64,000 nt of DNA from Haliclona indistincta (taxonomy: Eukaryota > Porifera > Demospongiae > Haplosclerida > Chalinidae). The translations under genes were made by a program, and so were the position numbers. The notes under the pieces were generated by a model. It saw nothing but the letters and a program-made list of their open reading frames with translations, was not told the origin of the DNA and searched no databases. The DNA lies in NCBI GenBank assembly GCA_964017065.1, contig OZ024788.1:1506305-1570304 (forward strand). The letters are read 5' to 3'. The stretch's first letter is position 1. The number at the start of each line of letters is the position of its first letter. Shown one piece after another: positions 1-24,329 of the stretch.

Positions 1-2752
1 ATAACTGGTGATGTTAGCACCAGTTTGAAGATTTTCAATTAGTGGAGCAGTTTCACAGGACAGAATGTACTGCTAGATAATACATTTCAGTGCTCTTGTG
101 TAGTTGGTTACGATAACTGGTGATGTTAGCACCAGTTTGAAGATTTTCAATTAGTGGAGCAGTTTCACCGCACAGAATGTACTGCTAGATAATACATTTC
201 AGTGCTCTTGTGTAGTTGGTTACGATCAAAGGTGATGTTAGCACCGGTTCGAAGATTTTCAATTAGTGGAGCAGTTTCACAGGACAGAATGTACTGCTAG
301 ATAATACATTCCAGTGCTCTTGTGTAGTTGGTTACGATAACTGGTGATGTTAGCACCAGTTTGAAGATTTTCAATTAGTGGAGCAGTTTCACCGCACAGA
401 ATGTACTGCTAGATAATACATTTCAGTGCTCTTGTGTAGTTGGTTACGATCAAAGGTGATGTTAGCACCGGTTCGAAGATTTTCAATTAGTGGAGCAGTT
501 TCACAGGACAGAATGTACTGCTAGTTCAGTGCTCTTGTGTAGTTGGTTACGATCACAGGTGATGTTCGCACCAGTTTGAAGATTTTCAATTAGTGGAGCA
601 GTTTCACAGGACAGAATGTACTGCTAGATACTACATTTCAGTGCTCTTGTGTATTTGGTTACGATCACAGGTGATGTTAGCACCAGTTTGAAGATTTTCA
701 ACTAGTGGAGCAGTTTCACAGGACAGAATGTACTGCTTGATAATACATTTCAGTGCTCCTGTGTAGTTGGTTACGATCACAGGTGATGTTAGCACCAGTT
801 TGAGGATTTTCAACTAGTGGAGCAGTTTCACAGCACAGAATGTACTGCTAGATAATACATTTCAGTGCTCTTGTGTAGTTGTTTACTATCAAAGGTGATA
901 TTAGCACCAGTTTGAAGATTTTCAATTAGTGGAGCAGTTTCACAGCACAGAATGTACTGCTAGATAATACATTTCAGTGCTCTTGTGTAGTTGGTTACGA
1001 TAACTGGTGATGTTAGCACCAGTTTGAAGATTTTCAATTAGTGGAGCAGTTTCACCGCACAGAATGTACTGCTAGATAATACATTTCAGTGCTCTTGTGT
1101 AGTTGGTTACGATCACAGGTGATGTTAGCACCAGTTTGAAGATTTTCAACTAGTGGAGCAGTTTCACAGGACAGAATGTACTGCTTGATAATACATTTCA
1201 GTGCTCCTGTGTAGTTGGTTACGATCACAGGTGATGTTAGCACCAGTTTGAGGATTTTCAACTAGTGGAGCAGTTTCACAGCACAGAATGTACTGCTAGA
1301 TAATACATTTCAGTGCTCTTGTGTAGTTGTTTACTATCAAAGGTGATGTTAGCACCAGTTTGAAGATTTTCAATTAGTGGAGCAGTTTCACAGCACAGAA
1401 TGTACTGCTAGATAATACATTTCAGTGCTCTTGTGTAGTTGGTTACGATAACTGGTGATGTTAGCACCAGTTTGAAGATTTTCAATTAGTGGAGCAGTTT
1501 CACCGCACAGAATGTACTGCTAGATAATACATTTCAGTGCTCTTGTGTAGTTGGTTACGATAACTGGTGATGTTAGCACCAGTTTGAAGATTTTCAATTA
1601 GTGGAGCAGTTTCACCGCACAGAATGTACTGCTAGATAATACATTTCAGTGCTCTTGTGTAGTTGGTTACGATCAAAGGTGATGTTAGCACCGGTTCGAA
1701 GATTTTCAATTAGTGGAGCAGTTTCACAGGACAGAATGTACTGCTAGTTCAGTGCTCTTGTGTAGTTGGTTACGATAACTGGTGATGTTAGCACCAGTTT
1801 GAAGATTTTCAACTAGTGGAGCAGTTTCACAGGACAGAATGTACTGCTTGATAATACATTTCAGTGCTCCTGTGTAGTTGGTTACGATCACAGGTGATGT
1901 TAGCACCAGTTTGAGGATTTTCAACTAGTGGAGCAGTTTCACAGGACAGAATGTACTGCTAGATACTACATTTCAGTGCTCTTGTGTATTTGGTTACGAT
2001 CACAGGTGATGTTAGCACCAGTTTGAAGATTTTCAACTAGTGGAGCAGTTTCACAGGACAGAATGTACTGCTTGATAATACATTTCAGTGCTCCTGTGTA
2101 GTTGGTTACGATCACAGGTGATGTTAGCACCAGTTTGAGGATTTTCAACTAGTGGAGCCGTTTCACAGCACAGAATGTACTGCTAGATAATACATTTCAG
2201 TGCTCTTGTGTAGTTGTTTACTATCAAAGGTGATGTTAGCACCAGTTTGAAGATTTTCAATTAGTGGAGCAGTTTCACAGCACAGAATGTACTGCTAGAT
2301 AATACATTTCAGTGCTCTTGTGTAGTTGGTTACGATAACTGGTGATGTTAGCACCAGTTTGAAGATTTTTAATTAGTGGAGCAGTTTCACAGGACAGAAT
2401 GTACTGCTAGATACTACATTTCAGTGCTCTTGTGTAGTTGGTTACGATCACAGGTGATGTTAGCACCAGTTTGAAGATTTTCAACTAGTGGAGCAGTTTC
2501 ACAGGACAGAATGTACTGCTTGATAATACATTTCAGTGCTCTTGTGTATTTGGTTACGATCACAGGTGATGTTAGCACCAGTTTGAAGATTTTCAACTAG
2601 TGGAGCAGTTTCACAGCACAGAATGTACTGCTAGATAATACATTTCAGTGCTCTTGTGTATTTGGTTACGATCACAGGTGATGTTAGCACCAGTTTGAAG
2701 ATTTTCAATTAGTGGAGCAGTTTCACAGGACTAAGTGTACTGCTAGATAATA
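1..2752. repeat. 112-bp satellite array with higher-order structure
   Basis: About 24 tandem copies of a 112-bp unit run from the window edge to about 2752, so the array continues off the left end. Monomers differ by a few diagnostic bases: the unit start reads ataactgg, atcacagg or atcaaagg, and the middle reads ttagtgg or ctagtgg. At least two monomers lack about 13 bp (near 525 and 1746). Variants recur in the same order about 448 bp apart (near 802 and 1251), and a longer block recurs about 1335 bp apart (near 631 and 1966), which is higher-order repeat structure. Short minus-strand reading frames of 60-69 codons recur only because the monomers are similar; 112 is not a multiple of three, so I call it non-coding. 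Confidence 0.95.
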
Positions 2753-3155
2753 CATGTCAAATGTATACCACAAATAAGGGCTTAGACTATACTAGAGGTA
2801 GCAGAATGTTCAATATCTACGAAACTGATGCCAACAATGATTCTAGTAACAAGATGCTTTAAAATGCATACTACCAGAAGATGGCTTGGACTACTAGAAT
2901 CAGCCATATTCTCTAAATTCATGAACTGAAATGTGGAAAACAATCATGTTGACTAGTCAGCAAGATGATGCCATAGCAATTGTTCGGGTGTTAGGATGTA
3001 TAATGTATTCACTTGTAGATAGGTGAAAATGTATAACAGCGAAGAAACACGCAATAACTCTTTTTGCACACTTAATTCGGGGTCTTCCCTACATAACCGT
3101 GCCGACCGGCATGGTTAATTATTTTAAGCTTGAATTGTCTTATTTATAATAAAAA
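2753..3155. other. gene-free stretch between satellite and SET gene
   Basis: I see no coding exon or clear repeat here. It holds the 3' flank of the minus-strand SET-domain locus and the edge of the satellite. No terminal inverted repeat pairing with the other side of that locus (near 8.1-8.4 kb) could be recognised by eye. Confidence 0.5.
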
Positions 3156-3709
3156 TTAAGATGATAACCATAAAAATGAAGCTAAGCTTGTTTTTGTCCT
3201 ATCTCCATAGTCATACAAGATTTCCTCATTTTGTTCTATGTTTCTAGATGCCAAGGCGATCAACCTTGGCACGCCATCTTCAGTGTGAAACAGCCTCATA
3301 GTACAATTGTACTGCTTTCTTGAATGATTGATTAGCCTTCCAAGGCGGCCACTTTCAGATGTTGCATCAACACTGCTCAAGAAATGATAATTCTGATGCA
3401 TTGCATAACAATTAAAATTACCATAACTTCTTTCCTTTGTCCTCAAAAAAGAACATGTAGCATTGACTTGAGTTGTAAGTCTTTTCTCGAAGCTTGGCCT
3501 CATTTCCAGAAATTAATTCACCAGCATATTCAACTATGTACTCTCCTTTCTTGAAATACCGGGTTGACTTTACCCCTCTGCCTTTTCCTGAAATTTTGGC
3601 AGCCTGATGGATGTAATAAACATGAATAAAAATTTATGTAAAAATTACTAACTCTGATGCCTTCATCTCCCTCGAAAATTTTCATTTCAATTTGTGCTTT
3701 CCATTGATT
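3156..3709 (-). CDS. KMT5A/SET8-like SET-domain exons (H4K20-type lysine methyltransferase)
   Basis: Three minus-strand exons (3653-3709, 3422-3603, 3156-3372) separated by introns of 48-49 bp read as one open frame of 152 codons ending at TAA 3158-3156. The order is a short lead-in, then GKGRGV (cofactor-binding start of SET), an EYAGELI strand, CVDAT, RLGRLINHS and EILYDYGDR. These are the diagnostic blocks of the KMT5A/PR-Set7 branch, which monomethylates histone H4 Lys20; the NHS and YDYGD residues that form the active site are present. The piece covers essentially only the SET domain, without the long N-terminal part of animal KMT5A. It lies 190 bp downstream of the Ulp1 gene on the same strand. 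The first exon is phase 0 and can be joined in frame to the catalytic Ulp1 exon (4067-4135) if the exon with the stop is skipped; an internal ATG could instead start a separate protein. Confidence 0.82.
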
Positions 3710-3899
3710 CTATGTTAATATTTTTGTCATGAAACAACAATGTTACAAAAACAAACATGTAGGTTGTAATTATTACAGTCATCAGAAATTCAATTCAATT
3801 GGCAGGCTTCACCTGTTGTACTGCACTTGGCACTCTCTTTGTTTTATCACTCCTATAGTGCATAATATAGCTATTATACATAGAGCAATTACAGTTATT

Positions 3900-6800
3900 T
3901 CAGCACCTTTGGTCATTATACATGTGGTATAAGATTGAGCCTCTTAAGCATGATGGCTCAAAAGAATCTTGTAATTGAACACTGTTCATGTCAGATGCCT
4001 ATTAAAATTATTGAACAGTTTTAGCCTACGATGTTCAGTGTGTGCCTTGTGTTCAGTCTAGCTCACCTTGTACAATAATGTTATGTTGTGCAACATATGC
4101 AGCCCACAGTCATAATTGTTGTTTTGCTTATTCACCTGCATGTTTGGTATTAATAGCTTTATTTTGAATAATACACTAACCTTTAAAACCTTAGGTACTA
4201 GTACAGTAGAACTTCCAGTCACAGAATTGATGAATTCGTTTAAATGCTTGACTTCTCTTACATGAGAATTAGCTGACATCGAATCAAGTACGTACACACT
4301 ACAAAATTTTTAATCTACTTTCATTATAATTACTTCAAACAACTTACAGTCTTGTGTTGCGTTCTACCACAAGTAGGATCCAATGCCATGCATCTCTATA
4401 ATACAAATAACATTGCTGATTATACTTATAAAGAGTTACTAGACAACCTTATGTTGCAAGGAAAAATGCTCAGAGAATGGGTCCAAAATGTTTTCCCTCC
4501 ATTTACTGCCTTGTGCATTGCTTTCATGGCCTTTTTCTTTTCATCAACTGACTGAGAACTTTGTGCAATTCTTGTGATGCCCTGAAATGTTAGGGCGCTA
4601 ACAATGTAAGATTTGTCAGATTCCGGAAGCATGGCTCTGTATTATTAAAGTAGCTAATACATTGCAAAGTGTACATGTTTTATACGCACCTTACAAAGAA
4701 ATCTACAATTCCATCACTAATCCCTCGTCCAGGATAAACAGACTGGATATCATTGTAGTGTAGTTGGTAATTCTTTGACATCCTATTATTTAAATTAATT
4801 TGAATCATTGAATTTTGTCAATGAAGTAAACTCACACTTTATTGTTGCTATCACTCATTTCTTTGCAGCAGATAAATTGGTCATCTTCAGTCAGTGTCAT
4901 TCCCGTGCAAACAGTATGATACCAACTGTAGCATCGGTCACACTGCACCCAGTCCAGTAGTTCACTCTCGAGCTTATCAGACACGCACTGCCCCATCCTT
5001 ATCATTCCACAGTGAGAAGCAACGAAAGTGGCACCTTTAGGGCCCATTCTTTTTGGCCTAGGGGCTATAAGATGCATTAAAGTAGTGTATAGTTGTTATT
5101 ATTAGCAATTTCACCTAAGGATGGTATCAGTGGAATAATATGATTAGGTGCCCTGGATTCCTCCTTTGATCGCACCCACATGATGTGGACAGTTGGTGCT
5201 TTAGTGATCTTAGAAAACAACGGTAGGATTTGTCTGTCGTATCCACAGCCTGAAAACTGTTTTTCAACATATTGCTGAATTGGAAGTTCAATTACGTCTG
5301 TCAAAAATTGCAGCTGCAGAAGGCCTGCAACCAAAATGGTCCAACGGTACAATAAAATTATAATACTTACCAGAATATGCTCCAAAATGTGCTGTTGACA
5401 CTATTTCTTCTTTTAGAATGTATTCCACAAGATTCTCAGTCGTTGGATTGGACTGTGGCCTGTTTAAGAAAGTAGCATCGCTGCTTGCTACCGTGCACAC
5501 AAATTGCTGAGCACGGTCTGGATCATGTAAGTCTGCAGTGTACTGAAACAGCAAGTATAACAGCATGAGTGTTATAGTTGATTAAGTTATTCACCAGTTT
5601 GAGATAGTCGAGAAACTTTTCTACAGCAAAACAGACACTGTTTAGTCGTAGAAGACTGCTTGAATCAGTGTTTCCGAACAAAGCAACACTGACACTACTG
5701 TATAAGCAGTTTCCGTCGCCACTAGATTCAAGAGGAGTAAATCCTCGTGGAGGGGTAACGCATTCTGCTGTGCTATACCAAGTAGCAAATAATCATTACA
5801 GTGAAAGTTGGTCAAATCACTTACTTGCAGAATTCAACTTGTGGCATCCCTATTGGTGCAAGATTTTCAGCCAGGTCTTTTTTTGCTTTAATTTCTGTTA
5901 CTTTCTGAACAAATTGATTCCAGTCATTCCTGCAACTGCAGATATCAGCGAGCACCATTTCTTCCAATGGCACTCTCTGCAAAAGTTCATTAACTTGAAT
6001 AAAATTACTTAAAACTTCCATAATGCTGACCTGAGTTAATGGAGCTATATTGGTTGAGACAACTGGAGACTGCAATTTGGACTGTGCCATCTCAGATAGA
6101 CAAGGTACTTCTTTGGGTGACACATCCTCCCTCTGCCAAAGTTATTAAAATTAATGATAATAATTATAATTTATTATTTATGATTGCCAATTAACTTACC
6201 TCCAAATCAGATGAAGTATCAGCTGATTGCAACCTGGCACCATGATCAGTTGATGGAGAAATTTGGTGATTTTCACCATCACTCCTGATAATTAATATGT
6301 TCAACGATAATTGCACATGTGCTTTCTTACACATTGTACATATTTGGACAACTCTGTATAAATGCTCTCATGATGTCGCACATCTCAGTGAAGGAATACT
6401 TTTTGCCTCCACCTATACAGTACATAATAATAATAGCATGTTAATTATAGCAAGCTATTCAAAAACACCTTCTTGATGTGATGGACATTTGAACTCTATT
6501 TCTGCTGGAAACCATGCAGGTTTGTTCCTAACATCCCTGTAAAATCCTCCTTTTCTTCCTGCATAGAGATGTTTACAATGATTTTCATGCTCAGATTCTT
6601 TACTTACGCCAAGGATTTAGCACACGATTAGTCAGTTTGTACAGTGTGTCAGTTGTGAAGTCAGCAGGCTCATTTGTAGGCAGCTCCAGAGGCCTAATCA
6701 CAAGAGGGTGGGTTGCTGGTGAACTTGGCTCGACAGCTATGTGTTAAAAAATAATTATAGGAACCTGAAAAAAAATAATGACCATGCACAGATGAGGCTG

Positions 6801-7341
6801 TTCTTATGAAGGTATTCCTGACGTGCTCATCCTCGCAAAATTTTTTCATGAAGGGTGGACCTAAAAATTTTAAAAACAATTCTAAGTTTCTTTGTGATCT
6901 ACATAAATTATTTGCTTTACCAGTCCACACAATCTGAGGTGGGCGACCTCTCTCTGTTTTAAGATACATTAACGCAAAACTAGGAACAACAGGTTCGCTG
7001 CCTTGTGTCCAGCTTTTTGCCTTTAATAATGAACACATTGTAAAGTAATGATTTTAAACTTTCCATTTTGATCACCTTTTTCACCATTTGCTGCCACTTT
7101 TTGCTATTCCGTTGGCGCTTTCTCCGAATAAGCTGAGGAAGAGTTTCCTATAATATAAAGTGGTATTTTCATTATTGTGGCAATTATAGCAATTATGATT
7201 ACTTTTTGTTGAACTTGCATTTCTTCACTTGAACTATTTTGCGACAATCACACAATAATTTATTATTATTAGGAGCACTGACCAAGATTGAGCAATTTGA
7301 TCACACCCAGGAATCATTGGATCACTACTTGAGTTATCCAT
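3900..7341 (-). CDS. multidomain OTU-PHD-Ulp1 peptidase gene, 20 exons
   Basis: Start ATG 7341-7339, stop TGA 3902-3900. I could trace 20 exons (from 7283-7341, 7203-7233 and 7076-7147 down to 4067-4135 and 3900-3998) joined by short GT-AG introns, all phases matching, for 812 codons. Residues 1-54 are basic; 55-240 hold an unknown domain with a W-F-P motif; 243-344 are leucine-rich. Residues 345-531 are OTU-like, with SGDGNCLY (Asp364, Cys367) and a closing APNHIIPL (His523). Residues 550-598 are PHD-like: the middle ligands (QCDRC, WYHTVC) are clear, the outer pairs irregular. Residues 609-780 are Ulp1/C48 with His706 (AWHW), Asp723, Gln761 and Cys767 (NNYDCGLH). The OTU fold cleaves ubiquitin, C48 cleaves SUMO; both triads look intact. 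A transposon accessory gene is the likeliest context; a domesticated host gene is the alternative. Confidence 0.8.
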
Positions 7342-7439
7342 CTATTACGAATAAATTAATTTTAAATTGAATCATTACATGCTGCATCTGTACCTTATGG
7401 TTGTGTTGTTATGAAATGCACTCTCTCGGTGATAATTAT

Positions 7440-8350
7440 ACTAACTCGTTAGTGCAATTGTGAGAGCTAAATCAGCTGCACACTGGAAGGACTGAAAAAC
7501 AATGAAAACTACATGGTTGTTGCAAAATTGGAAGGCTATAAAATACCTGAACTGTTGGAGAACTGACTGCAGGGCCAATATCCTGGCAGGCTGCTGAACT
7601 CTGAATAAGTATGACTTGATTGGCTGCTGCTAAACTTGGAACAGGGAGAATGGCAGTTCAGTAGAACTATTAGGTGATTGCTGCTAACTGGCTGCATGCA
7701 TATGCTAACAACTGGGAGAACTGATTCAAAGCTTTTCCCCTTTATAATAAACTCTCATGTCTCAAGGGACTTTGTTCAAAGCAAATTTAATTTTATTCAT
7801 TAGAGTGTGTATCTTTGTACATGTAATATAGATAATAATTTTAAAGGGCTTAAACTTTGTTTTAATTGATACATGCAAGATACCATTGCAACTAGTATTT
7901 GTAAAAATAATAATTCCAATAGTCAATTTTCTAAACAAAAAGTCCAACTGAATAATAACATGCATGCAGAAAGAGCTGGTAGCCTAGTATGCAAGCTGGT
8001 TTGCAGACATCAGGTTTGCAGCAACCACTCTGCCTGAGTGACTCAGCTCAAAGGGAACTGCATTTTGCTTTTACATACATGTAGGTTTCTACACATACAC
8101 AAGTGCGCGCGCACGTGATACACTTCAACAGACGCGAGGTCATATATTATATCATATTATTCAAAATGTAGGTCATGGTGGCTTAGATGTAGCTAGCTAT
8201 GGACGGGCGTGGCCCGTCCTTGTCTAGCTTGGATAGACTCTCTTTGATATCAGGTATGCCTAACTATCTTGACTGTAACCGATGCGCGCTAACTTACTGA
8301 ATTATGTACATGTATAGGGCAAAGAGTCAAGGCCGCGGGAAGGACCAGAA
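7440..8350 (-). promoter_or_regulatory. 5' leader/promoter region shared with the transposase-like locus at 23.6-24.3 kb
   Basis: This stretch directly upstream of the OTU-Ulp1 start shares ordered blocks with 23640-24310: ctcatgtctcaa followed by a caaa..ttattcat block, GCAGACAT with TTTGCAGC, GCGCACGTGA or GTGCACGTGA (E-box CACGTG), and GACTCT..TTTGAT / GACTCTTTCTGAT before CAGGTATGCCTA. The blocks keep the same order and orientation relative to each gene start, so they are homologous rather than chance matches. Which bases are promoter, 5' UTR or transposon end is not resolved. Confidence 0.6.
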
Positions 8351-8471
8351 GATCACACCAATAATATTACACTATATATAACTGTGTGAGTCGATCAGAA
8401 TTGTCTAACACTCGTAATGTAAATGGTAAATACACATGTATAATAAGTCTGTTTCTGGCACTGTCCTAGGT

Positions 8472-8756
8472 CAAGGGGTGGTCACTCCAATAGGTCCTGT
8501 ACTCACAGCTGCGACCGCGGTCAAGATTTTTGACCGCCCAAAAAGCAGCTTGACCGTTTGACCGCCTCGATTTTACAGCATTGACCGTTGACCGGCGCAC
8601 TAAAATTGAGCGATGAGTAAGCCCCTGGTAATTAACTAGCCCGAAGCCGTCTTGATCGTTGACTAGAGGGTCCAAAATTTGTCCTTGACCGCTTGACCGT
8701 ATCTTGACCGCAGTTGCGGATGTGAGTATAGGACCAATTGGAGTGACCACCCCTTG
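8472..8756. mobile_element. MITE, 5-bp target duplication (hAT-like, possibly hAT5)
   Basis: 285-bp element with imperfect terminal inverted repeats of about 50 bp beginning CAAGGGGTGGTCACTCCAAT and ending with the complement. TAGGT is duplicated at 8467-8471 and 8757-8761. The inside is rich in TTGACCG words in both orientations (gaccgttgaccg). No coding capacity. The family call rests only on the 5-bp duplication and the CAAGG terminus. Confidence 0.8.
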
Positions 8757-8761
8757 TAGGT

Positions 8762-9230
8762 TTTTGAGTATCTTCGTTGTTTGTGTGTAGTTGGGTGTGG
8801 CCCAACCTTTGGTCATAATTGTGTTGCATAAACAGAATTTCAGCTTGCACCTTTGTTGGTTGGTGATGTGTACTACACTCTACCTCATGTGCATGCATCC
8901 CTTACATTGTTATATTCACAAAGATCAGCTTTTCAAAATTGAAATGTGCCATAATTTTTTAGACATCATGACCTTAGTCCCATAATGAAAACATTGCAGG
9001 TCAAAATGGTTGATTTCAAAACTAAAGTCTGGATGCTTGCATAAACATAAATGCCATAGAAATACTCTGCTACCAGTTTAGCTGGAAGGCTGACAGAATA
9101 GCACCCAACTTAGCACATATTGCACAATAGATGGCAATGTCCATTTCTGTGTGTGACTGCAGGCTCTGTTGTCACCATGGGAAACCTGTTGGCACAAGAA
9201 TGCAATGGTTTATAATTTTTTAAACAGAAT
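8762..9230. other. gene-free spacer between two MITEs
   Basis: No exon, repeat or conserved motif recognised. Confidence 0.4.
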
Positions 9231-9238
9231 ATGCTGAA

Positions 9239-9582
9239 TAGTGTTGGGCAATAAACCGATATTTAGTTACATCGGGATATAAAACGGCAATCGAATACAT
9301 AATCAAATTGGCTACCGTATTATCGGTTTATCGAATCATTTATATGCAATCAGATACTACCACATGTTCCATTCACTGATTGATCAATTGTGCGTACTCA
9401 TACTCTACTGAAACCAGGAAAAGTGAACATGTTGGTGTTTTTGTCAAAAAAGGTTCATTTTGTTATTAATAACCTCAACAAACAATAGCTACATTATTAT
9501 CGGCCGGCCGGGATATCTAGTTATATCATATTTCAACTGCATTGATAGTTGAATATTTAAAAATCGATATCGCCCAACGCTA
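9239..9582. mobile_element. hAT-type MITE with 8-bp target duplication
   Basis: 344 bp. Ends read TAGTGTTGGGCAATA on the left and its near complement (cgatatcgcccaacgcta) on the right. The flanks ATGCTGAA (9231-9238) and ATGTTGAA (9583-9590) are an 8-bp target duplication with one change. An 8-bp duplication plus a GTTGGGC terminus is characteristic of hAT elements. Internal sequence is AT-rich and carries CGATAT/ATATCG words. Confidence 0.85.
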
Positions 9583-9600
9583 ATGTTGAATGTGACTTGT

Positions 9601-9881
9601 CAGTAGCGTAACTACCGTGAGGCGGAGGAGGCGCTTGCCTCCTCGCTTTTGCCCAACCAGAATTTTTATGAACGTACTATACCTTGCCTGGTACAGCTGT
9701 CTATCTTGCTCAATTCTCCAGGCAAACTCGAATGCACTATTATTCTAAATAATGCACCATGTTTTTTGAGTCAGCGAATGACGAAAAATGACTAAATCTA
9801 ATGAATATTAATTAGTTAAGTTTCAAAATCGCGCGCTTACGCGCGCGCCTCCTTACTTCAAAATTTCTTGTTACGCCCCTG
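9601..9881. mobile_element. MITE, 5-bp target duplication
   Basis: Terminal repeats CAGTAGCGTAAC and, at the right end inverted, CAGGGGCGTAAC, with GC-rich subterminal blocks (ggcggaggaggcgc and gcgcgcgcct). CTTGT is duplicated at 9596-9600 and 9882-9886. It begins ten bases after the previous MITE's target duplication. It shares the 5-bp duplication and CARGG-like terminus with the elements at 8472 and 32463. Confidence 0.65.
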
Positions 9882-9886
9882 CTTGT

Positions 9887-11229
9887 GACACTAATTCAAG
9901 CTATTTATACTTTTGTTGTTTGACAAAAAAATTATACATTTGCTAGTCTCGTCTGACTACTACGTCTGAAATTTTTATGGAATAATTATAGTACAAATGG
10001 CCTATTTTTGTTGTTTTACACATTCGCTTCTTTTGTAAATTCATTCCTGCAAAACTTTATTCCTACACAATGTTTACTTAGGAATCTGCTGTTTCCTACG
10101 TCATATTTGCTTGTCGTGTTTCCTAGCACTATTCACATGAGCTAGTGTTGCATTGTACCTAGTCTAACTGTAGTAAATACCTAGTCTAGCTGCCAAACTT
10201 CCTGACATGAGTCAGAATGCTAATTGGACTTTTAATTTACTTGCTCTAGCAAGTAACAATTACCTGACAAAGTGGTTACATCGGTAGGTATGTGACGTTA
10301 GACATTAGGTGATGTGTGTCGATATAGTACTGTACTACTGGTCAGTTGATAAAAAAGGGCAGCTTAAAGACGCCATTATGCTTAATCATGGTTTTAAACA
10401 GTTCGAACTAAAAGCAGCAGCTCACGTCGCTACTACCCATAGTGGTAGTCATGTCCTTGAAATACTTTAGAGCTTGTTCAAGACTTGTGATACATTGTTA
10501 AGTGCCATCCGAATGACAAAATATCAAGTCAACACAGCAGACAAGAGGGCGATACCATTTGCATTGGCCATTTAAGCTCAACCCACCATTCATCAAACTC
10601 TGCTAGGTCCAACACTGCTGTAAATTCATTACTAACAGCTGTTTAGACATCTCAACCACAGCATCAATCTTGTTCAAAGAATACTGCCAAAGTATTTATG
10701 TGGTTTTCTGGTCAGACTTCTGAAGGAACAAAGGATCTTTAAAAGCTTTGTAGTGGTTTAGTTGCAGACCACATCATAGCTAATACCTATCCACTTAGTG
10801 GTCTTGTTTAGTCACACTACTTGATGACTACAGGGCAGTATTTGCCTTCTTGATAAAGAGCTGGGCAGCTTTCCCTAGTTTTTGTTGGTATAAAAACGTT
10901 GTAATCCATCATGTGAGAACAAGAGATACAGCACTTCACCTGCCAGTAAAACTAGGCACCTAAGATGCTGATGCCTCGGTGGATTATGCACTGACTATTT
11001 ACACAGGCGAAACAATTATTATTGCTACCACAGTATCTATTCAAATATCACACAGTACACTGAGCAGGCAGAAGGCCTGAAGCTGCAGTAATTTTGGTAT
11101 GCAATCAGAAGCCAAACAATGCTGACCACATGGTGTGACTATTAATTTACTGGGCGTGTCTACAATGAGTAGCCATTGTAGTAGCCAGTGAGTCAGTGAG
11201 TCAGTAGCCAGTGAGCCAGTGAGTAGCTA
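9887..11229. other. gene-free stretch with a dispersed repeat fragment
   Basis: No exon recognised. About 10637-10820 is similar to 25725-25900 (shared blocks: actgccaaa, atgtggttttctggtcagacttc / atgtggttttttgatcaaacttc, gctttgtagtggtt), so it is a remnant of an unidentified dispersed repeat. The right edge (11190-11225) has short gtgagtcagtgagt tandem wording. Confidence 0.45.
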
Positions 11230-11239
11230 GCTTGCCATG

Positions 11240-11838
11240 TAGCCTCGTCCCCAGGCTCTAGGCGTGGGCGGCAAGCGTGGGCGGCAAAGATAGAGCCTGG
11301 TACGCATTGCAGGCGCATGCGCTGAATTTTAAGTATTAACCATCAGATGGTTAATCCGTATACCACAGTAAACTACTGTTGATGTCCGTGCATTCTTGTT
11401 TTTATCAGGATACTCATCGTTTAGTTTTGAAAAATACAGAAGCAGCAGTGTTTAGGCCAGCAAAGCATGCCACGATGAATCATTGTACTGTTACGAGCCA
11501 TATCTAACGCCACAAGCAGCGAATATTCTCGATTTTGGCCTAATTTCGACAAAGTAAGTGCTCAGTCTAAACAGGTCTCCAATTGCTCACAATTATGCTG
11601 TGTACGGTACCTGCACAAGCGGCAAAGTAGATGCAGCAGCTTACCTGAGCATGGTTGGATCCCAAAATCTTTCCAGCGTTGGTTCGCATTAATGCATAAA
11701 TTTATAAAGGCGGAGCGAGGGCGGTGTCTTACGATTAATCTCCCGCGCTTTTCAAAATCTGGCGCATGCGCCTACATTGCGTACCAGGCTCTATCTTTGC
11801 CACCCACGCCTATAGCCTAGAGCCTGGGGACGAGGCTA
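11240..11838. mobile_element. long-TIR element with 10-bp flanking repeat (Mutator-like candidate)
   Basis: 599 bp. The termini are inverted repeats of about 80 bp starting TAGCCTCGTCCCCAGGCTCT, continuing through GGCAAAGATAGAGCCTGGTACGC and GGCGCATGCGC at both ends. The flank GCTTGCCATG occurs at 11230-11239 and 11839-11848. Because the terminus is itself partly palindromic with the flank, the true duplication could be 9 to about 14 bp. Long TIRs plus a duplication near 9-10 bp suggest a Mutator-like element. No coding capacity. Confidence 0.75.
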
Positions 11839-11949
11839 GCTTGCCATGTAGCTTCCTCGCGCATTTTGTCCGGACTTACGCTGCTATACTGTAGTCTAAA
11901 CTAACCTACAAGCTACTAGGCAGTCGTCTATGACCAGTTTTGTCTTCAG

Positions 11950-14900
11950 ATAAGTCTAGATCGCCGGCAGCAGCCATCGAGGTAAGCATATCACGCCATA
12001 ACTCACGAACAGAGCTTTATAACTAAAATTCTTACAATTCATTTCCGAGCAAACATTGACTTTTGCTTGTATTGCACGTTTCAGTGCTTAGTTTTCAGCG
12101 AGCGACGAGAAATCCTGCCGACAGCCGTATGCCTCCGTGGCTCCACCCACCGAGGCATAATAATTATGGCTAAGTCAAAATTGTACAATACTTACTTTCC
12201 TGAACCCACTGGCTAGGAACAAGAGTGGTCACACTTCAATGTACCTAGTAAGTAACCATTTAAAAGGTTCATACGAATATTCTGGTCATTTCCACAATGT
12301 AAGAGAGACTTGATTCCTGTGTACACATAATCCTAACTGGATACAGTAATGGTATCCTTCATTTCTAGACTTATTTCCTTTGTAGGAGCTTGGATTGTGG
12401 ACCTCTTTATGTTTCTGTGCTATTCATACTTTGTGTCATGATCCAGCGGACATCAAAGTATGTTAGCATAATGTCAAATTAAAGTTTTTGTACATATCTA
12501 CAATTAGTTTTTCAGTCGCAATCTTTCAGTTTTCTTTGAATTTTTTTAATTTTCAGTGATCAATTTTTCAGTTGCCAATTGTCTGCATAAAACAGCCAGA
12601 CAAAATCATTAGCAAATTTTGTTGCAATGGCATGTGTGTGCCACTTACATGTTCCCTAATTTCCTGAGCTTATTTGCCACATCAGGGTGAAGCTGTACAT
12701 CTGGGATAAAGCCAGCTAGTTATTAAGTCCATTGCTAGTTATGTAGCCACTTTCGAATGTTTTAGGCACTTTCTGCGGCGATCTCAAAACTGACTTAGTG
12801 CATCTTTGATCATTGTTTTGTTTCTGCCATATTAAATTCACTATTGTCCACAGGCAATGGTGATTGGAAGCAACATACAAAGATGTGTTTGATCCAGTGT
12901 TGTTTTCATGAAGGTTTGACTTTTAATACAGACAGATTCAGTTTACTATGTATTCCTATAATCACAGAAACTGCATTGTAGTACACATACTAGACAGAAT
13001 TGAGGAAATTGATCTTTCTGACAAACTGTGATCAAAAACAGGTCCTCCAAGAGGGACCTCTTACAGCCTTTCCTGTTTAGAACTCACATTTCAAGTCTGG
13101 GGAGACAACTCGACTTTTATACCAAGTCCAAAGGATCAGGATGAGACTAGGACTGTTCTCTCTCTATATATAGCAGGTTAATAAAGCACACATCTCAACA
13201 AACACACACATACATGGTCAGCCATTTTTTCTCTAGTGGTAGTGGGTGGTACGTGTTGCTGTGATAAGTGGTGATGAATCTGTTGATGGTGATGTGGGTT
13301 TGGTTTTAACCATGCTCTTCACTGAAAGTCGTCTCAGCTAGTATATATTAAGTATTTGTATACTTTAAAGTGATGCGTGTCATGAGTAGTAGCCTCACTC
13401 TTTTACGCAGGAGTCTGACTGACTATCCATCAGCTGCCCTTTGGGCACTAGCAGTAAAACAGATGTAGTATTGTGGACAGCTTTCAGACTCATTCAGGTG
13501 TGTGTGTGCGTGTGCGTGCGGGCGGGCGAGCAGCTGGGTGTGTGGGTGACCTAGCTGATGGTTTAACTAGTAGAGTTTTGGGCTTATACATGTAACCCAC
13601 AGAGCCAAAAATAATTTTTGAGCATGGGTGGTCGTTTGTCCAGTCAATGTACATTTTGTCCAGCCATCATTCAATTTTAGTCGGTCATAGGGGCGTGGTC
13701 GCAATAATAGGTGTGGCGTTTGGGGCGTTAAATAGAATGTCTGCAGTAGTAAGCACATGCGTGCGTTTTTGTGTTGGGCCTACATAGCCTACAATCAGAG
13801 AAGCGCCTTTTGCAGGCTTGGAAAGTAGCCCCAGGTAAGTGCTAAGTATAGCAATAGCCTTTAGATCATGAAAGAATGCCCGGACAGAATGACCGATCGA
13901 GCGTTTATTTGCTCGGCCCATTTGCTTGATTGCGAGGAAATTGGCCGGTGGCCGGACGTTATTTTGTGCTCTGAACCCAGAGGATACCGGTTCGAATCCC
14001 AGAGCAGAGGGAAAAACATCACAAGTACTTCAGCGCTAGCCCACCAGCCCTCCCATCTGTAAAACGGGTACCTGGTATTGTACTGGGGAGCAAAGTACAC
14101 TGGCTGTGTCTCACAGATCACCAACAACGTTAGTGGGACTTTGGGTGCCCACACTGGACCTGTAGTGAGAGACACAGTTGGTGCTCCTGTGAGTTCCTTA
14201 CCTGGCTCCAGGAGAATGCGCATGCAGCACTGGCACATAGTACCTTCTTGGTGCACAGATGCCTTAACTTCGCTAGATATGTGTGACCATTTGTATGTAT
14301 CTGTCATTGTGCATGTGCAAGTTGTCACAGTTTTGTCATATTTATGATAGCCGTTAGTGTGAATTCACTTATCATAATTGTTCTATTTCTTCAGGTTCAT
14401 GGTCGTATGCATGACACATGATAGAGGGTTGTCATCCCAGCTCCAAAAATAGGATGGGAAATAAGTCCAGAATATTATATGGCAGGAAGTTGATAGTAGC
14501 TCCAAGACAGGGCAGGGAATAGAGAATAGAGAGAATAAGGTGAGCTCTATCAGGAGTACACTAATGGCTAGTGGTGTGCTGTTACTTACTCTTCTCGCTG
14601 CTTCCTACCTCTCCAAGTGCCTTGATTACTCTCACAGTACAGTGCTGTTACGTGATACCGCTGATATGTAAGGTCATTGTCGGACCTTTAAGAATTAATG
14701 TGTCTCACTTTCTCTCCGAGTCACACCACAACTATATACCTTATAGATTATTGTCATGCTTCCTAGTCTCATATCTCTTGTCTTATTGTAGTCATGTTGC
14801 CCCAGAGTGAATTGGGGGTGGGGGCGATGGGTAGATAAAATGTTCTGTAATGTTCTGAGCGTTCTATGCATGTGTTTTATAATTTTGTGTAGAATATTTT

Positions 14901-17900
14901 TTTCTTTTGCATGCCATTGTTATATTTTACATGTCCATTGAATTTGTTCGCTTGCGCATCCTGTTCCCGTTTTCTATACCCATGAATCACGTACCCTCAA
15001 GATAAGCTCAATAAGGTCTGGCCCATAATGACTAGTCTTGTTTTTATTGCTTCATCCTGTGTTAATTCTATCTGCCTATTTATTTGTTTCTGCTTCCCTC
15101 AATGATTGGCCAAGCAACTGTTCAAACAGGTCATAGAGCAGTTTAATCCTATGTTGAAGTCAGGGCAGACAGTTCCTAACGTTATTTCATCTTCCATACT
15201 ACCATCTGTGTGCTACGGCAACTTATCAGCTACCTACTGTACTATGAAATGAATTACTTTAAACATGCCACTAAATAGTACATATTCACATAACCATTCT
15301 TTCTCCCTCAGGACACTCTAGTATGCATTAAGGAACCACTGTTACTGGATATCTTGCTTTGTCTTCAACTGCCACTACTTGTGCTAGAGAGAGAAGATAG
15401 AGGCATGCCTAGTCAACCGTACTCCATTATTGAAGTAAATAACAAGAAGAGATACGATGTGATGTTGCCGGTTATTGTATCAGTAGTGAGATAAACAAAG
15501 AGGAGCTAGGTCAATAATTCTCAAGTGTCTCGCTCAATCTGCATGTAGCGAACTGCTGAGGAGAGACACCATATTTGGTGAGATGTGAATACTTTGCGTA
15601 TATAGGCTCATTTTGTATATAGGCTCGCAAAAAGATTGAATTCAAGAAAAGTTGGTTTGTGAGAAGGTGTATGTTGTAGTCCTGAATGCAAGCAAGTATC
15701 TCTACGTAGACTGGTAACTGTCTCAAACATTGTAGTCTATTGAGACCGTGAGCCTCATTCTTCTCGAATTCTTACTCACTCAATAGGTGTCCTCTATGTC
15801 CCAATGCTACAATACTGCCAGTATGGACAAACTACCACTGGCTAGAGTGTCATGTGTGGAGAAAAAAGTAGGTGTGACGGATTTTTGTCATCTTCTCTCC
15901 AATTTCTTCTTGTCTATGTAATGTGGGTTGGTTCTAGACAGCCGTTATCAGCTGCGCAAGACAAGATTAGATGTAAGCAGTACTGTCACTAGCAATGTTC
16001 TCGCTAGAAATTTAAATCCAAGGGGGGATTTTAACATACCTAACAGCGCGTTTACACTTGAGCCCAGAACGGTTCCAGAACCATTCCCTTTCTAGTGTAA
16101 ACGAGTACAGAACCGTTCTGAACCGATCCGTTCCAGCCGAGAACGGTTATATGAAAAGCGGTGGTCCAAGAACGGTGTGAACGGTTCTAGCTGATAGTGT
16201 AAACAGAATCGGTCCACTAGAACCAGTTATCGCGAGCATTGGTGTGCTACAGCTGACTAGACAGGTGTCTTGCTACATGCTGTTGGCTGAAATAAGTAAG
16301 TATAAGACAATGAAAGTGTTTCAGCCCCACGCGGATTGCCTGAGAACGCTGCATGCACTTTGTGGCAGGCTTACTAGCAGATTTCGTTGATGTTCGATGT
16401 CCTGCAGCTGTCAGTAGCAATCCATGAGTAAGCACTGTAATGCCTAAGCCAAGTAAGATATCTTCGAGCGCTGAGGCAAGCAATATAATCGAACAGAAGC
16501 TGCAACAAGACTTTCTCGGTCGCCATAATTGGACAATAATGAATAGGCGTGTTCAGAGTAATAATTTTTTAATCGTTTTGTGTCGGTTATTTGAGCCTAG
16601 TGTAAACAGTGCTCAGAACGGTTCTAGAATCATTCCTTGAAACCGTTCCAGAACGGTTCTTCAATGCTGTAACTGGTATATTATTAACACCTGTTACAAC
16701 AGCTATCATGTTGGCAGTTGGTCAAATTGGTTAGAGCATCAGGGTTAAGAAACAGAGAGAAAGGGTTTGAATTCTGCTTTCAGGCTTCAGCATAATTATT
16801 GTTTCTTTTACTAAGCGTTCATTGAACATTTTTTAGCAGTTATCCAGGGGGTTTTTGCTACAATCCAAGGGAGGAAACCCCCTCAAAAAGGCCTACCAAG
16901 AACATTGGTCACTAGTTCTCTTGTTGTACAGAGCTGCTGCTTGACTCTGTTCAAACCTCTGCTAGCATCTGTTAGAGAAGGCGTGCTCCAATCCCTCACG
17001 CATGCCCTGTGAGATGCTTTCACCTATTTTATTTTACGCTGTGGCTAACATCCCGGTACCGGGATCTTAATTTTCAATGTTATAATCCCGGCAACAAGAA
17101 AAACCACGCTTAGACAGCAGAAAACACTAAGACTAAACCCTAAACCTTAAAAAAACCTTCTCCTAACAGCGCTGAGGCCCAGGGGTAAGCTCCAGTATTC
17201 GGGTAGGGGTAAGCACCAGTATTCGGGTACCACTAATGTCGCCACTAGCCCCTAGCAGCGCTTTACCACTAATGCTTTAACATTGTCGACAAACTTAAAA
17301 CTTAGTAAAAAAACTAAAAAGCAAAAAAAAGCAACACTAGCAGGGACCGAAAGCCACCGCCCTCACCACCAGTCCACTGCAACTCACACCGACCACTCCT
17401 TGTAGTTAGCATTATTATAGTGTGCAAAATGCGTGGGCATTATTATCGCGCGTGCCGGGACGCCAAGACTAAAAATTAAGATCCCGGTACCGGGGCGTTA
17501 GCCACTGTGTTTATTTTACCTCTCTTTCTCCTCAATGTCCAGTCTATTCAACTCCTCTGAGCCTGGACTCATGAAGGTACATGTGTATGCAACGTTTATT
17601 TTGCTACAATTATCACCTCTGCATTCTTCTAAGTCTCCCCTCCCTCTCTCTCTCACTCTCTCTCTTTCCCTCCCTCCCTCCCTCCCTCTCTCCCTCCCTC
17701 CCTCCCTCCCTCTCTCCCTCCATCTCTCACTTAGTGCATTTTTTCAGGCCCACTAAACAGACTAAATTCAGACACTACGCCTAGCACAGTTATGCTTACA
17801 AAGGAGTTATTCTATCCTCATCCATAAAACAAAGATGACCTGAGTTCAACATGTATCGAAAATTCATGACATGTCAATGGTTAGCATGTTTGATCCGTTC

Positions 17901-18513
17901 CTATAGTGTAGAAATAATGCTTGTTTTGCAGAAAGAGAGAAATGCAGATTTGCTGTTCATTGTGACTGTTTGTACAACAGACCTTCGTTTTCACTTTCTT
18001 GCAGTTGGTGGAGATGAGCTGACTAACTTACTAGCAGCAGAGAGACTGTACAGCGAAGGACTGGACAAGATTAATATAACAAGAAACTATCCTCCACACA
18101 AGATGAAATCAGACGGTACTATGCTACCAACAGTGAGTGAGCGTAGATTTTTTGAGCTTGTATTATTATTAATTTTGGTGTTATCTCAGATATTATGGAC
18201 AAGGTTGTGACGCATTGTTTGATGGGCTGTGACACTATTTCTGTCTCCATATTCATGGCTTGCGAACCATTGAGACTGCGTTGAATTAATTCAAACTTGC
18301 TCAGATGTGCAGCTAAATGTGGGCTAAATACTTTTAATTTATACTGTCTTATTGCTGGCACTGTAGGAAACGCTACAGAGACTCTTATTTCACCGCTACG
18401 AAGATCCTCCCATTACTAAGCTCCACCTTGGGCCTAACCACACCCAGGTGCTGCTCATCATCGCCCTAGCATCTAACGCTGAAACATCATCCACCAATCA
18501 CATACATTATTAA
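11950..18513 (+). CDS. host gene of unknown identity, partial exon model
   Basis: I do not recognise this gene. Exon candidates bounded by good AG/GT signals are 11950-11981, 12386-12457 (ELGLWTSLCFCAIHTL...), 15312-15434 (41 codons), 15787-15867 (27 codons), 18005-18132 and the terminal 18367-18513 (49 codons, TAA 18511-18513). The last two join in frame and read AAERLYSEGLDKINIT, RNYPPHKMKSDGTMLP and ETLQRLLFHRYEDPP, which looks like a conserved C-terminus. 15312-15434 joins 15787-15867 in phase 0 and is leucine-rich, like a helical-repeat protein. Links between the groups are missing, and several introns are enlarged by inserted MITEs, so it may be one gene or two. Confidence 0.5.
12458..13860. 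other. intronic or intergenic stretch, no feature beyond a dispersed repeat
   Basis: No convincing exon. About 13130-13360 (aggttaataaagcacacatc, acacatacatggtcagccattttttctct, gatgaatctgtt) is homologous to 26400-26470 plus 27480-27540 and to 35690-35770, a dispersed repeat of unknown class. 13500-13540 is GT/GC-rich simple sequence. Confidence 0.4.
13925..14340 (+). repeat. tRNA-derived SINE candidate
   Basis: 13940-14010 resembles a tRNA of the Leu/Ser type: an A-box-like TTGGCCGGTGGCCGG, a potential anticodon stem CTCTG..CAGAG, and a near-perfect B box GGTTCGAATCC at 13990-14000. The following 300 bp (catctgtaaaacgggtacc and on) would be the body. The acceptor stem does not close, so it is not a functional tRNA gene. 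A second copy in the window was not found; SINE status is inference from the pol III boxes. Confidence 0.5.
15990..16914. mobile_element. possible outer element interrupted by the Harbinger-like MITE
   Basis: CTAGCAATGTTCTCGCTAG on the left and, inverted, CTAGTGACCAATGTTCTTGG on the right, each followed inward by a tccaagggRgg block (16018-16030 and 16863-16874), suggest a roughly 0.9-kb element whose middle was hit by the MITE at 16044. No clear target duplication. Confidence 0.35.
16044..16669. mobile_element. PIF/Harbinger-like MITE, copy 1
   Basis: 626 bp flanked by TAA (16041-16043, 16670-16672), the 3-bp duplication typical of PIF/Harbinger. The left end is CAGCGCGTTTACACTTGA; the right end is decayed (complement CAGCATTGAAGAACCG). 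Both arms are filled with the words AGAACGGTTC/GAACCGTTCT in alternating orientation. The same element lies inverted at 27680-28308 and as a remnant near 35288. No transposase. Confidence 0.88.
17039..17507. mobile_element. MITE with palindromic CCCGGTACCGGG subterminal block
   Basis: Inverted termini of about 35 bp: CTGTGGCTAACATCCCGG and, from the right, CAGTGGCTAACGCCCCGG, both running into TACCGGGATCTTAATTTT. Each end contains the perfect palindrome CCCGGTACCGGG or its near copy. No clear target duplication. A short cctaaaccttaa run inside is telomere-like only by coincidence of a few units. Confidence 0.7.
17630..17735. repeat. CT-rich simple repeat (CTCC/CTCT)n
   Basis: About 100 bp of pyrimidine-only CTCC and CTCT units on the plus strand. 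The serine/leucine/proline reading frames through it are artefacts. Confidence 0.9.
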
Positions 18514-20150
18514 GTCCCACACCCCCTCACAGTATAACCACTCTTTTGTGTATAAACCGAACATTATAATTCTAATAAATTTCTAACGAGTTGTTTTTGT
18601 GTTGTTGGTTAAATTAAAAATTCTCACCACTGACACGTTTCTGGTGAAAAACTGATTAATGATGAAGAGTGAGAGAAAAAAATCAGTTTAAAGTCACTTC
18701 ATCGAGCTTTATTTTGTCTGTGCTTTTATTCCTCTGATGTCTCGTAAAGAGAGTCCATGCCATTGGTCTAACCAACAGAACACTTGATGAGAGCAAACAT
18801 TCATAATCCTGTTCTGGACTAGTCCAAACCACTTGAAGTCACACTCCACTAGTTATGGGCACACATAATGGGCTCGCTGGTCTCCTGTTAGAACAACTAT
18901 GACCTCTCAGTGTGTGTGCAATCACCACAGTTGGACTTCAATGGTCCTCTTCTTGTTTTCTGAAATCTCATTTTAGTAGGGTCCCATTCTGGTCTGTAAT
19001 CCTACAGATGAACGTGTGTCTCTCTCAATAGGTACACACAGTGTGTGAACAGTGTTTTGTCTGCACTACAGACACATAACTGGTGCATGCCCTAGCGTCT
19101 ACTGCATCATTAACTATCAAATTGAATATTTACCACTTCACTACTAGCTAGCTTTTCCTGCAACAACTTATGTCCCTAAAAAAAGCATACTACACTTGTG
19201 ATGCATACATACATCTCTAGTGGTGAAAGTGATATGGAACCCATCTCTCATGTAGCCTGAATTCTGTATAATAAAGCATAGTAAATACATACATTCATGT
19301 TAATTGTGCTTGAGCATGAGTTAGTGAAAGTGTGCCTCTAGTCTTGAGTCTACTAGTCTTGCTAGTCTACTTTAGTTGTTCAGACCTTCTCCTGTAGTAT
19401 GCATTTGACTGCATCTTGCAACTGGAATCATTGTTCAGGTCATTTTTGTGAATTTGGTGCGACTGGATTGCTCTGGTGGTGCAGACCTTCTCCTGTAGTA
19501 TGCATTTGACTACACAGTGCAACTGGAATTTGGTTTACTACGTACTATCTAATACATATACTACTGAACACACTTTTTATGATACATTAATTGAATAATA
19601 ATAATAATGTTTGGATAATAATTTTAAATTGATTTGTTAGCAGCTGTTAATTTTTTTATAATTACGATACCATAAATAAAACGAACAATGCAACATAAAG
19701 TTTTCTCTGTTCATGTATGATAACGATGATTTGATTCTTTTTAGTGATGAATTTCTCTGTTCGACAATTTCACTGTTTAAGTTCTGATACTGAGGATAAC
19801 GATTCATATTGTAGGCAATGCTACATCCTGTTCATTGGGAAAATTAATAAGACATTACAAAAAATATAATTTTAATTACCAGTGTGATTTGCCAGTGAAA
19901 CCTGTCAACTAGAAATCTTGATTTGCGAAAGAAGTCTGGTTCTCGATTTAAGCAGTATTGGTGAAGATTGCATCCATTATCATACACTATAATCTTTGGA
20001 GCTATAATAATTATGTTAAATAATGTGTAATCTGTGTTTTTAATTTATAGTTGGTTACCTGAGGAAAATCGCTCATAGAGTATGGTGAAGGGTATATTTG
20101 GCGACTCTTGCACCTGCATCACTTGATATCCATAGCAAATTCCTGTAGTA
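18514..20150. other. gene-free stretch
   Basis: 3' flank of the host gene. A roughly 95-bp tandem duplication carries cagaccttctcctgtagtat at 19381 and 19483; a diverged relative (tagtatgcatttgacagcat) lies near 59850. The rest is AT-rich with no exon seen. Confidence 0.4.
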
Positions 20151-20465
20151 TCATAATTATCATAATAATAATTATCTTAATTATTAGTAAGCTACCGTGC
20201 TGGCAAAAAAGATAAAAATTCCTGGAAGTAATGACGGGTGTCCGGAGTTTTTTTTAGTGCAGATTCTACTGCTGCTTCTGTCTTCTGAGTAACTTTTTCG
20301 AGCACGCAGTGATTTTAATTGAGGAAAAAAGCTAGCAGGTTTTCCATTGGAGATATTCTGGACAAGTATTTACTGGTGCCAGATCTTTAAATGGAGCTAG
20401 CGATACAGCTATAAGCCTGCGGAGAATTGGCTCAATAAGCTCCGTTGGATAATTTGGTAAGTTAT

Positions 20466-23620: not shown

Positions 23621-23639
23621 AATATTAGCTGGTACTGAG

Positions 23640-24310
23640 AATTGACTGGAGAACTGAATCCTGGTAGAAAAATAACTGGAAGAACTGCGAACTGCTTAGT
23701 GGCAGAGCTGCGAGTATAAATTGAGGACTGCTACAACTGGGGTGAGCTGAATCTCTTTTAAACCATACTGTCATGTCTCAAAGGAGTTGTCATGATCAAA
23801 ACAAATCTTATTCATAGTGAAGTCAAACATACAAGAGTACTGTATACTGATAATCTAATGTGCAATACAGAGAATGATGGAATTCTGTAAGCTTTGAATG
23901 ATATGACCAAATGCAACTAGTTACAATTGCAGTAAATCGAGTTGAGTTTCAATTAGTCACTAACTGCAAGAGCGCCAGTGGCTAAAACATGAAACTACAA
24001 ATTTAGTACTGACAAGTTTGATATTTACGTAGATATAGCAGGTACTAATTACCCGTTGGTTGCAGCAGGAACGCTCCTGCTTGCAGACATGAAGTTTGCA
24101 GCTCAAATGCAAGCTGCATGCATGCTAATAGTACAATTGAAGTATGCGCGTGCACGTGACTTCGCACGAGGCGGGCAGGTCGAAGGTCACGCTCCACGAT
24201 CAGGATCACTGATGATGGTGTTAGACTCTTTCTGATCAGGTATGCCTATCTCTTAGACACTCGGTATTGTGACTGAGCGCTCTTATTATTCAGTGGCTGG
24301 TATGCTGACT
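23640..24310 (-). promoter_or_regulatory. 5' leader of the transposase-like locus, homologous to 7440-8350
   Basis: Diverged copy of the region upstream of the OTU-Ulp1 gene, in the same orientation relative to its gene. Conserved points include ctgtcatgtctcaaaggagt, gcttgcagacatgaagtttg, gcacgtgac and gactctttctgatcaggtat. Shared position and order argue for descent from one mobile-element end or promoter. Confidence 0.55.
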
Positions 24311-24329
24311 TGAATCAGTCATGGAGTCC

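Follow-up and report, generated by a model that had tools for sequence, protein, structure and literature searches.

A predicted four-domain gene combining OTU-like and Ulp1-type peptidases, a PHD-like finger and a KMT5A-type SET domain in the sponge Haliclona indistincta, and its possible association with mobile DNA

Background

The systems closest to the gene described here, which lies in a 64,000-nucleotide stretch of the genome of the sponge Haliclona indistincta (the window) and is predicted to combine two peptidases, a zinc finger and a histone methyltransferase in one protein, are found in mobile elements and among cellular chromatin enzymes. In the accessible part of the report on Ginger1 elements, the transposases possess an OTU or an Ulp1 domain, never both, with one family having Ulp1 together with PHD, and the families contain 0-4 introns; the same source notes Mutator elements with Ulp1 and Helitron elements with OTU (PMC2836005). 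Plant VANDAL elements are described, in the available portion of a second report, as having a VANC-type gene with an Ulp1 domain and a role in escape from silencing, the exact function of the Ulp1 domain being given as unknown (PMC13317346). Fungal KDZ elements, according to the available text of a third report, carry TET/JBP dioxygenases and have defined termini with a 7-8 bp target-site duplication, and Kyakuja elements are reported to be without terminal inverted repeats (PMC12730594).

The window corresponds to positions 1506305-1570304 of contig C6 in a 144-Mb assembly of 46 contigs (contigs are denoted C1, C2 and so on). A gene on its minus strand, together with a second intact copy on contig C7, very probably encodes a single protein with four domains, judging from the sequence of both copies. 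This protein resembles each of the described systems in part. For example, C-terminal OTU or Ulp1 domains are also present in Ginger1 transposases, which have a Gypsy-type integrase and for which no SET domain is listed in the accessible part of the report (PMC2836005), whereas the four-domain gene has both peptidases and a SET domain. Membership in Ginger1 was rejected, as no integrase family was found in Pfam scans of the window and C7 proteins. The likeness to the VANDAL and Kaonashi (KIU) Mutator-like elements is an accessory gene bearing Ulp1; the plant protein is of the VANC type, with OTU and SET unmentioned in the available portion of the source (PMC13317346), whereas the sponge gene family is a candidate for mobility. 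The likeness to fungal KDZ elements is chromatin-modifying cargo beside a KDZ transposase; the fungal cargo, as far as that source extends, is a DNA dioxygenase (PMC12730594), whereas the KDZ link in the sponge is circumstantial.

Among cellular enzymes, SENP/Ulp1 peptidases have the His-Asp-Gln-Cys set and the QNNNYDCG motif that are also present in the C48 domain described here, which differs in being fused to OTU, PHD-like and SET domains and shows modest similarity to them (E-value 5e-5). The C-terminal SET domain contains the GKGRGV, NHS and YDYGDR motifs of KMT5A/SET8, an enzyme that monomethylates histone H4 at lysine 20. KMT5A is not known to have peptidase domains, which the four-domain protein adds. 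No protein with an OTU-PHD-Ulp1-SET combination was found in the literature by title or start of abstract among the matches listed, in a search covering few subscription papers. Protein searches, which depend on shared 5-residue words and detect only close relatives, yielded none that has OTU as well as C48, and a search of viral contigs with two peptide patterns found none with both peptidases. One protein search matched 12 proteins, all with a SET domain and aligned over 18-28% of the query; another matched two proteins (E-values 2.1e-5 and 0.021), and a third had no matches. Within these limited searches, we know of no transposon-encoded chromatin modifier that combines a histone methyltransferase with both peptidase types.

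Results and discussion

One reading frame containing four domains

The coding region (window 3156-7341, minus strand) begins with an ATG at 7341 and ends with a stop codon that terminates at 3156, with 25 exons encoding 957 amino acids (aa). Exons 1-7 are located at 7341-7283, 7233-7203, 7147-7076, 7020-6921, 6860-6783, 6736-6608 and 6558-6469; exons 8-14 at 6412-6331, 6284-6200, 6132-6031, 5976-5825, 5772-5595, 5542-5371 and 5324-5115; exons 15-20 at 5064-4836, 4782-4690, 4636-4448, 4395-4348, 4298-4181 and 4135-4067; and exons 21-25 at 3998-3907, 3852-3813, 3709-3653, 3603-3422 and 3372-3156. From the N-terminus, one frame contains an OTU-like peptidase, a PHD-like finger, an Ulp1/C48 peptidase and a KMT5A (SET8)-type SET domain. 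The original prediction, made from the sequence of the window, had placed OTU, PHD-like and C48 domains in one frame of 20 exons and 812 aa with the SET domain following it. These first three domains do share a frame, one with 25 exons and 957 aa, and that frame includes the SET domain as well.

The gene model was obtained by dynamic-programming joining of exons across GT-AG introns into one open frame. Exons in a poorer region can likewise be joined by this kind of program, so the open spliced frame alone is weak evidence and the support for the gene is comparative. The second intact copy, at C7:10267697-10271678, encodes 960 aa that are 81% identical to the window protein. Gene-to-gene alignment found GT-AG borders at 24 of 24 introns in both copies, and all nine exon gaps between them are multiples of three once the intron at 6030-5977 is set aside. 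This 54-nucleotide (nt) intron was added to a first model of 975 aa and 23 introns, giving the final 957 aa and 24 introns, because the matching C7 stretch is 55 nt long and contains two stops. In the window the intron is open and a multiple of three, and the window protein is thus either 957 or 975 aa. Reading C7 exon 10 as broken, by a 1-nt gap and two stops, was rejected since the stretch is read as the 24th intron, with GT and AG in both copies. On this comparative evidence and that of purifying selection, the predicted four-domain, single-frame gene is real.

Purifying selection between the two intact copies

The ratio of nonsynonymous to synonymous substitution rates (dN/dS) was determined between the window and C7 copies by Nei-Gojobori counting over 940 codons, with bootstrap intervals. 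The overall value is 0.183 (0.144-0.225), well away from the value near 1 that had been proposed as evidence against selection. The original prediction had also taken the open frame across many exons as a sign of selection; selection is upheld by dN/dS, and the argument from the open frame is weak by itself, as the same kind of program also joins exons elsewhere. By part, the ratio is 0.209 in the N-terminal region, 0.129 in OTU, 0.144 in C48 and 0.123 in SET, and selection has therefore preserved the three enzyme parts and the N-terminal part. Intervals are wide in the first linker (0.419, upper bound 0.91) and the PHD region (0.289, upper bound 0.65). The second linker, which comprises exons 21-23, has a value of 0.231 (0.09-0.65).

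Domain assignments

Pfam analysis of the 975-aa model named all four of the predicted families, and scans of single exons named the same ones. The SET domain (68.4 bits, E-value 8.3e-19, cut-off 22.4) and Peptidase_C48 (46.2 bits, E-value 6.3e-12, cut-off 20.7) are far over their cut-offs. On this model, PHD (20.9 bits, E-value 3.8e-4) and OTU (21.0 bits, E-value 5e-4) are under their cut-offs of 24 and 23.3 bits. The PHD exon open reading frame (ORF) alone reached 24.8 bits and the C7 segment 23.1, while the OTU segment of the window scored 23.1 bits and that of C7 24.1. The OTU and PHD assignments are accordingly given here as borderline profile matches. The diagnostic residues that had been proposed for OTU, C48 and SET are all in place in the window copy, and we take those of OTU and C48 to be catalytic from known families.

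The N-terminal region (aa 1-242, window 6200-7341, minus strand as for all parts of the gene) has no Pfam match at E-values up to 1 in the window model, and the corresponding C7 segment matches no family up to an E-value of 10. The OTU-like peptidase (aa 327-513, 5115-5772) contains GDGNC with Asp346 and Cys349, and NHIIPL with His505. Among proteins, it is closest to the C-terminal part of P0013, a protein from a cluster of 94 members; the segment aligns nearly full length, across about 175 residues, and P0013 retains both DGNC and the final His. The zinc finger (aa 514-590, 4836-5064) appears to be PHD-like at best, as its ligand spacing is irregular, with CC rather than CxxC as the last pair and a first pair that is also not CxxC. 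The Ulp1/C48 peptidase (aa 591-762, 4067-4782) contains His688, Asp705, Gln743 and Cys749, all identical in the C7 copy, and its nearest solved structures are SENP7 (E-value 5.4e-5) and Ulp1 (E-value 0.0053). A linker of exons 21-23 (aa 763-825, 3653-3998), whose frame is continuous in both intact copies, separates C48 from the KMT5A/SET8-type SET domain (aa 826-957, 3156-3603), which has the C-terminal end YDYGDRTKTSLASFLWLSS. The 14 best solved-structure matches of the SET domain are all KMT5A/SETD8 (147 to 130.6 bits), with the next SET protein at 81.3 and KMT2A at 53, and the alignment to the KMT5A/SETD8 structures reaches the C-terminal end.

Copies elsewhere in the genome

An own-genome search with the protein model yielded at least 81 matches with 47 of 91 candidates scored, so these counts are lower bounds. 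Beyond the window, C3:12.70 Mb and C7, copies are located at C26:18373-21444, C3:11.98 Mb, C6:10.62 Mb and C9:0.454 Mb, and on C4 near 4.086, 4.166-4.170, 4.298, 4.312, 5.251-5.253 and 5.890 Mb. SET-only pieces occur at C4:10.639-10.651 Mb, where seven SET-exon pieces in one orientation (C4:10638886-10650940) constitute a local array of family fragments. At C9:7.936 Mb and C1:12.06 Mb only the SET part matches, and we regard these two as different SET genes. The first of these is a separate KMT5A-like gene (C9:7936069-7936520) that is 46-49% identical in two exons, and the four-domain gene is therefore not the only KMT5A of this genome.

All five copies that were compared besides those in the window and C7 are truncated or frame-broken. 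Exon-by-exon comparison identified frame-breaking gaps in the copies at C26 and at C4:4.169, 4.311 and 5.889 Mb. The C9:0.454 Mb copy is partial, with OTU-PHD only and stops in the stretch preceding OTU, and the 11.4 kb around it yielded no C48 or SET match. The copies examined keep their introns and therefore spread as DNA. Upstream of three truncated C4 copies lies about 1.3 kb of sequence that is common to them, at 89-93% identity, and missing from the window; these copies were therefore copied along with other DNA. Additionally, about 150 nt downstream of the stop codon are common to the C7 copy and three C4 copies and absent from the window. The C7 and C26 copies are 97.6% identical across 4.1 kb.

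The copy at C3:12.70 Mb is 99.3-100% identical to the window along about 21 kb, with a 200-N gap at one end; a tandem array and an inserted repeat set the two apart. This copy looks like an allele or assembly duplicate and was excluded as an independent copy. Its use as evidence for mobility was rejected, given near-identity over such a length, the gap at one end and allele-like differences.

A duplicated block with a KDZ-transposase-like gene

The four-domain gene is part of a collinear block of about 23 kb (window 3146-26221) that matches approximately C7:10267685-10289293 at 67-90% identity in pieces, with gaps. The block contains the four-domain gene, a multicopy unit at about 14.5-19.4 kb and a KDZ-transposase-like gene at 19.66-21.85 kb. 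Pieces of the latter (19661-21851, minus strand) were located by own-genome search and have a weak Pfam KDZ match on one exon (E-value 0.11); the joined pieces give no Pfam KDZ match, and the KDZ link through Pfam alone was set aside as weak. A tblastn search of five loci connects the gene to an ORF at C3:9.31 Mb (9.8e-7) that is over the Pfam KDZ cut-off. Its relatives in the genome are on C7, C2, C6 (1.482 Mb), C4 and elsewhere. KDZ-like matches are located about 12 kb upstream of the four-domain gene in both the window and C7, about 6 kb from the copy at C4:5.890 Mb and about 44 kb from that at C4:4.312 Mb.

The upstream region of the four-domain gene (window 7498-8067) is 77% identical to C2:16793507-16794124, and the part at about 7708-8072 is 66.5% identical to sequence upstream of the C7 copy. 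C2 contains a third, rearranged instance, in which the homologue of window 7498-8067 lies 219 nt beyond the KDZ-like gene. C2:16789801-16798500 has no match to the four-domain protein, nor did the genome search give one elsewhere on C2. Altogether, the association of this gene family with mobile elements is circumstantial. The proposal that the gene is transposon-borne is favored by dispersed, intron-retaining and mostly dead copies and by the KDZ-like gene in the duplicated block. It is disfavored by element ends that were not found, by several copies without a KDZ-like match within 50 kb and by the weak Pfam case for KDZ.

Proposed role and competing explanations

The explanation that we consider best is a multi-enzyme chromatin protein that is slightly more likely than not linked to mobile DNA and may modulate silencing, to which, taken as a whole, we assign a probability of about 0.5. 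In this proposal, a predicted OTU-type deubiquitinase and an Ulp1-type SUMO peptidase are linked through a PHD-like finger to a KMT5A-type methyltransferase of histone H4 lysine 20 (H4K20). The finger and the N-terminal region would direct the protein to chromatin, where it would strip ubiquitin and SUMO off nearby proteins. SUMO is a common tag that recruits silencing machinery. H4K20 methylation would also be written and the target region would exit the silenced state. The family spreads as DNA with its introns kept, leaving mostly dead copies behind. These enzyme activities and the anti-silencing role are inferred from sequence. The parts of the proposal differ in strength. An association with mobile elements, in origin or at present, is slightly favored, while a role in modulating silencing is tentative. 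We regard it as rather unlikely that one protein of a mobile DNA family removes ubiquitin and SUMO, writes H4K20 methylation and in so doing resets chromatin at its own copies.

A serious contender, with a probability not far below even, is an ordinary nuclear host gene that arose by domain fusion and was segmentally duplicated with its neighbors, the KDZ-like gene being included by chance and the decayed copies being pseudogenes. Strong purifying selection and 25 exons are what such a gene would have, and the roughly 23 kb that were duplicated are mixed sequence, intergenic stretches included, without convincing terminal repeats at the ends; the neighboring multicopy unit (window 14.5-19.4 kb) is likewise dispersed. 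However, truncated copies are scattered on several contigs, three of them with foreign upstream DNA, the genome has the separate KMT5A-like SET gene at C9:7.936 Mb, and OTU and Ulp1 are typical passengers of DNA transposons in the accessible part of the Ginger1 report (PMC2836005). Spread as DNA together with mostly dead copies is somewhat more in keeping with an accessory gene carried by a mobile element than with a usual host gene. A more specific version of this mobile origin, in which the protein is an anti-silencing factor of a large KDZ-type element that acts on SUMO, ubiquitin and H4K20 at its own copies, seems unlikely. It would account for the KDZ-like gene within the block, for the C2 instance, where 219 nt separate the gene's upstream region from KDZ-gene sequence, and for the KDZ-like fragment at a distance of 6 kb from the copy at C4:5.890 Mb. 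It also has precedents, within the available portions of the sources, in VANDAL elements (PMC13317346) and in fungal KDZ elements with TET/JBP and Kyakuja elements without inverted repeats (PMC12730594). Nevertheless, no element ends were found at the block ends, several copies have no nearby KDZ-like match, and the KDZ identity consists of one weak Pfam match and a link through another ORF. As for the coding region itself, exons 21-23 of the linker are short and under loose constraint (dN/dS 0.23, 0.09-0.65), and some genomic places hold SET pieces alone, as would be the case if an OTU-PHD-C48 gene and a separate SET gene were adjacent. A division of this kind is highly improbable, because in both intact copies the frame runs on and the splice sites are conserved across the linker, with no stop in between.

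A number of observations weigh against a multi-enzyme protein associated with mobile DNA. There are no KDZ-like matches less than 50 kb from the C4 copies at 4.086, 4.166-4.170 and 5.251 Mb, nor from those at C3:11.98, C6:10.62 and C9:0.454 Mb, and none of the 14 genomic Pfam KDZ profile matches is within 100 kb of any copy of the gene. Nor were convincing terminal repeats, inverted or direct, found at the block ends; elements of the Kyakuja type, too, are reported without inverted ones. Twenty-five exons are many for a transposon gene. In regard to the selection analysis, the synonymous rate (dS) is uneven, at 0.91 in OTU versus 0.38-0.39 in both the N-terminal part and SET, and the copies may thus have a mosaic history. 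Introns of the window and C7 copies are 76% identical, thus less diverged than synonymous sites, and for this reason they are no clean neutral yardstick. The OTU assignment is affected as well. P0013, its nearest relative, receives no Pfam family at E-values up to 0.1, the OTU segment has no significant match to a solved structure (best E-value 0.079), and the motif with the Asp is GDGNC in the window, GEGNC in C7 and REGDC in the decayed C9 copy. This Asp is not fixed, since Glu replaces it in the C7 and C9 copies, and its variability may mean that the OTU domain is weakened.

Other features of the window and genome

Several repeats are present in the window. A tandem array of a 112-bp unit (7-2759, 24.7 copies) continues upstream into C6 and is longer in the C3 copy. 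An inserted repeat of about 585 bp with inverted ends (11250-11834) is absent from the near-identical C3 copy and is flanked by a direct duplication of about 16-18 nt, which is long for a DNA transposon. A hairpin-like repeat with 56-nt arms is located at 8472-8756 and has several genomic relatives, and a long TCAC tetranucleotide array occupies 62141-63366. The multicopy gene-like unit (14500-19400) has pieces that match, with 69-94% identity, eight or more other places, and one of these is located about 5 kb away from the C9:7.936 Mb KMT5A-like gene. Window 1-17816 is near-identical to C3:12.69-12.71 Mb and 23634-26400 is identical to C7:3.74 Mb, as if haplotype pieces sit in different contigs. 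A 483-aa ORF at 47116-48567 (plus strand) has weak C-terminal protein-kinase matches (Pkinase E-value 2.4e-4, below cut-off).

Elsewhere, a 213-aa ORF at C2:16780258-16783536 has an OTU match next to a Cys-rich stretch, which in our judgment resembles a CXXC finger, and to a piece of the KDZ-like gene. With 150 of 171 candidates scored, the genome has at least 134 OTU matches; many are in ORFs about 2200 aa long, which may be Helitron-like. It also has 38 C48 matches, some within ORFs of 1600-2057 aa. Additionally, a 970-aa Fundulus protein (P0012) has a SET8-like SET domain at its start and a long remainder with a weak MamL-1 match only, and is by its predicted domains another unusual fusion of the SET8-like type.

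Conclusions

Removal of ubiquitin, removal of SUMO and methylation of histones are usually carried out by separate enzymes, and the conserved protein described here would hold all three. A single protein with these activities would allow a test of their joint action on the same nucleosome or silencing complex. If the family is mobile, its protein would join VANC and TET/JBP among the chromatin modifiers that transposons encode.

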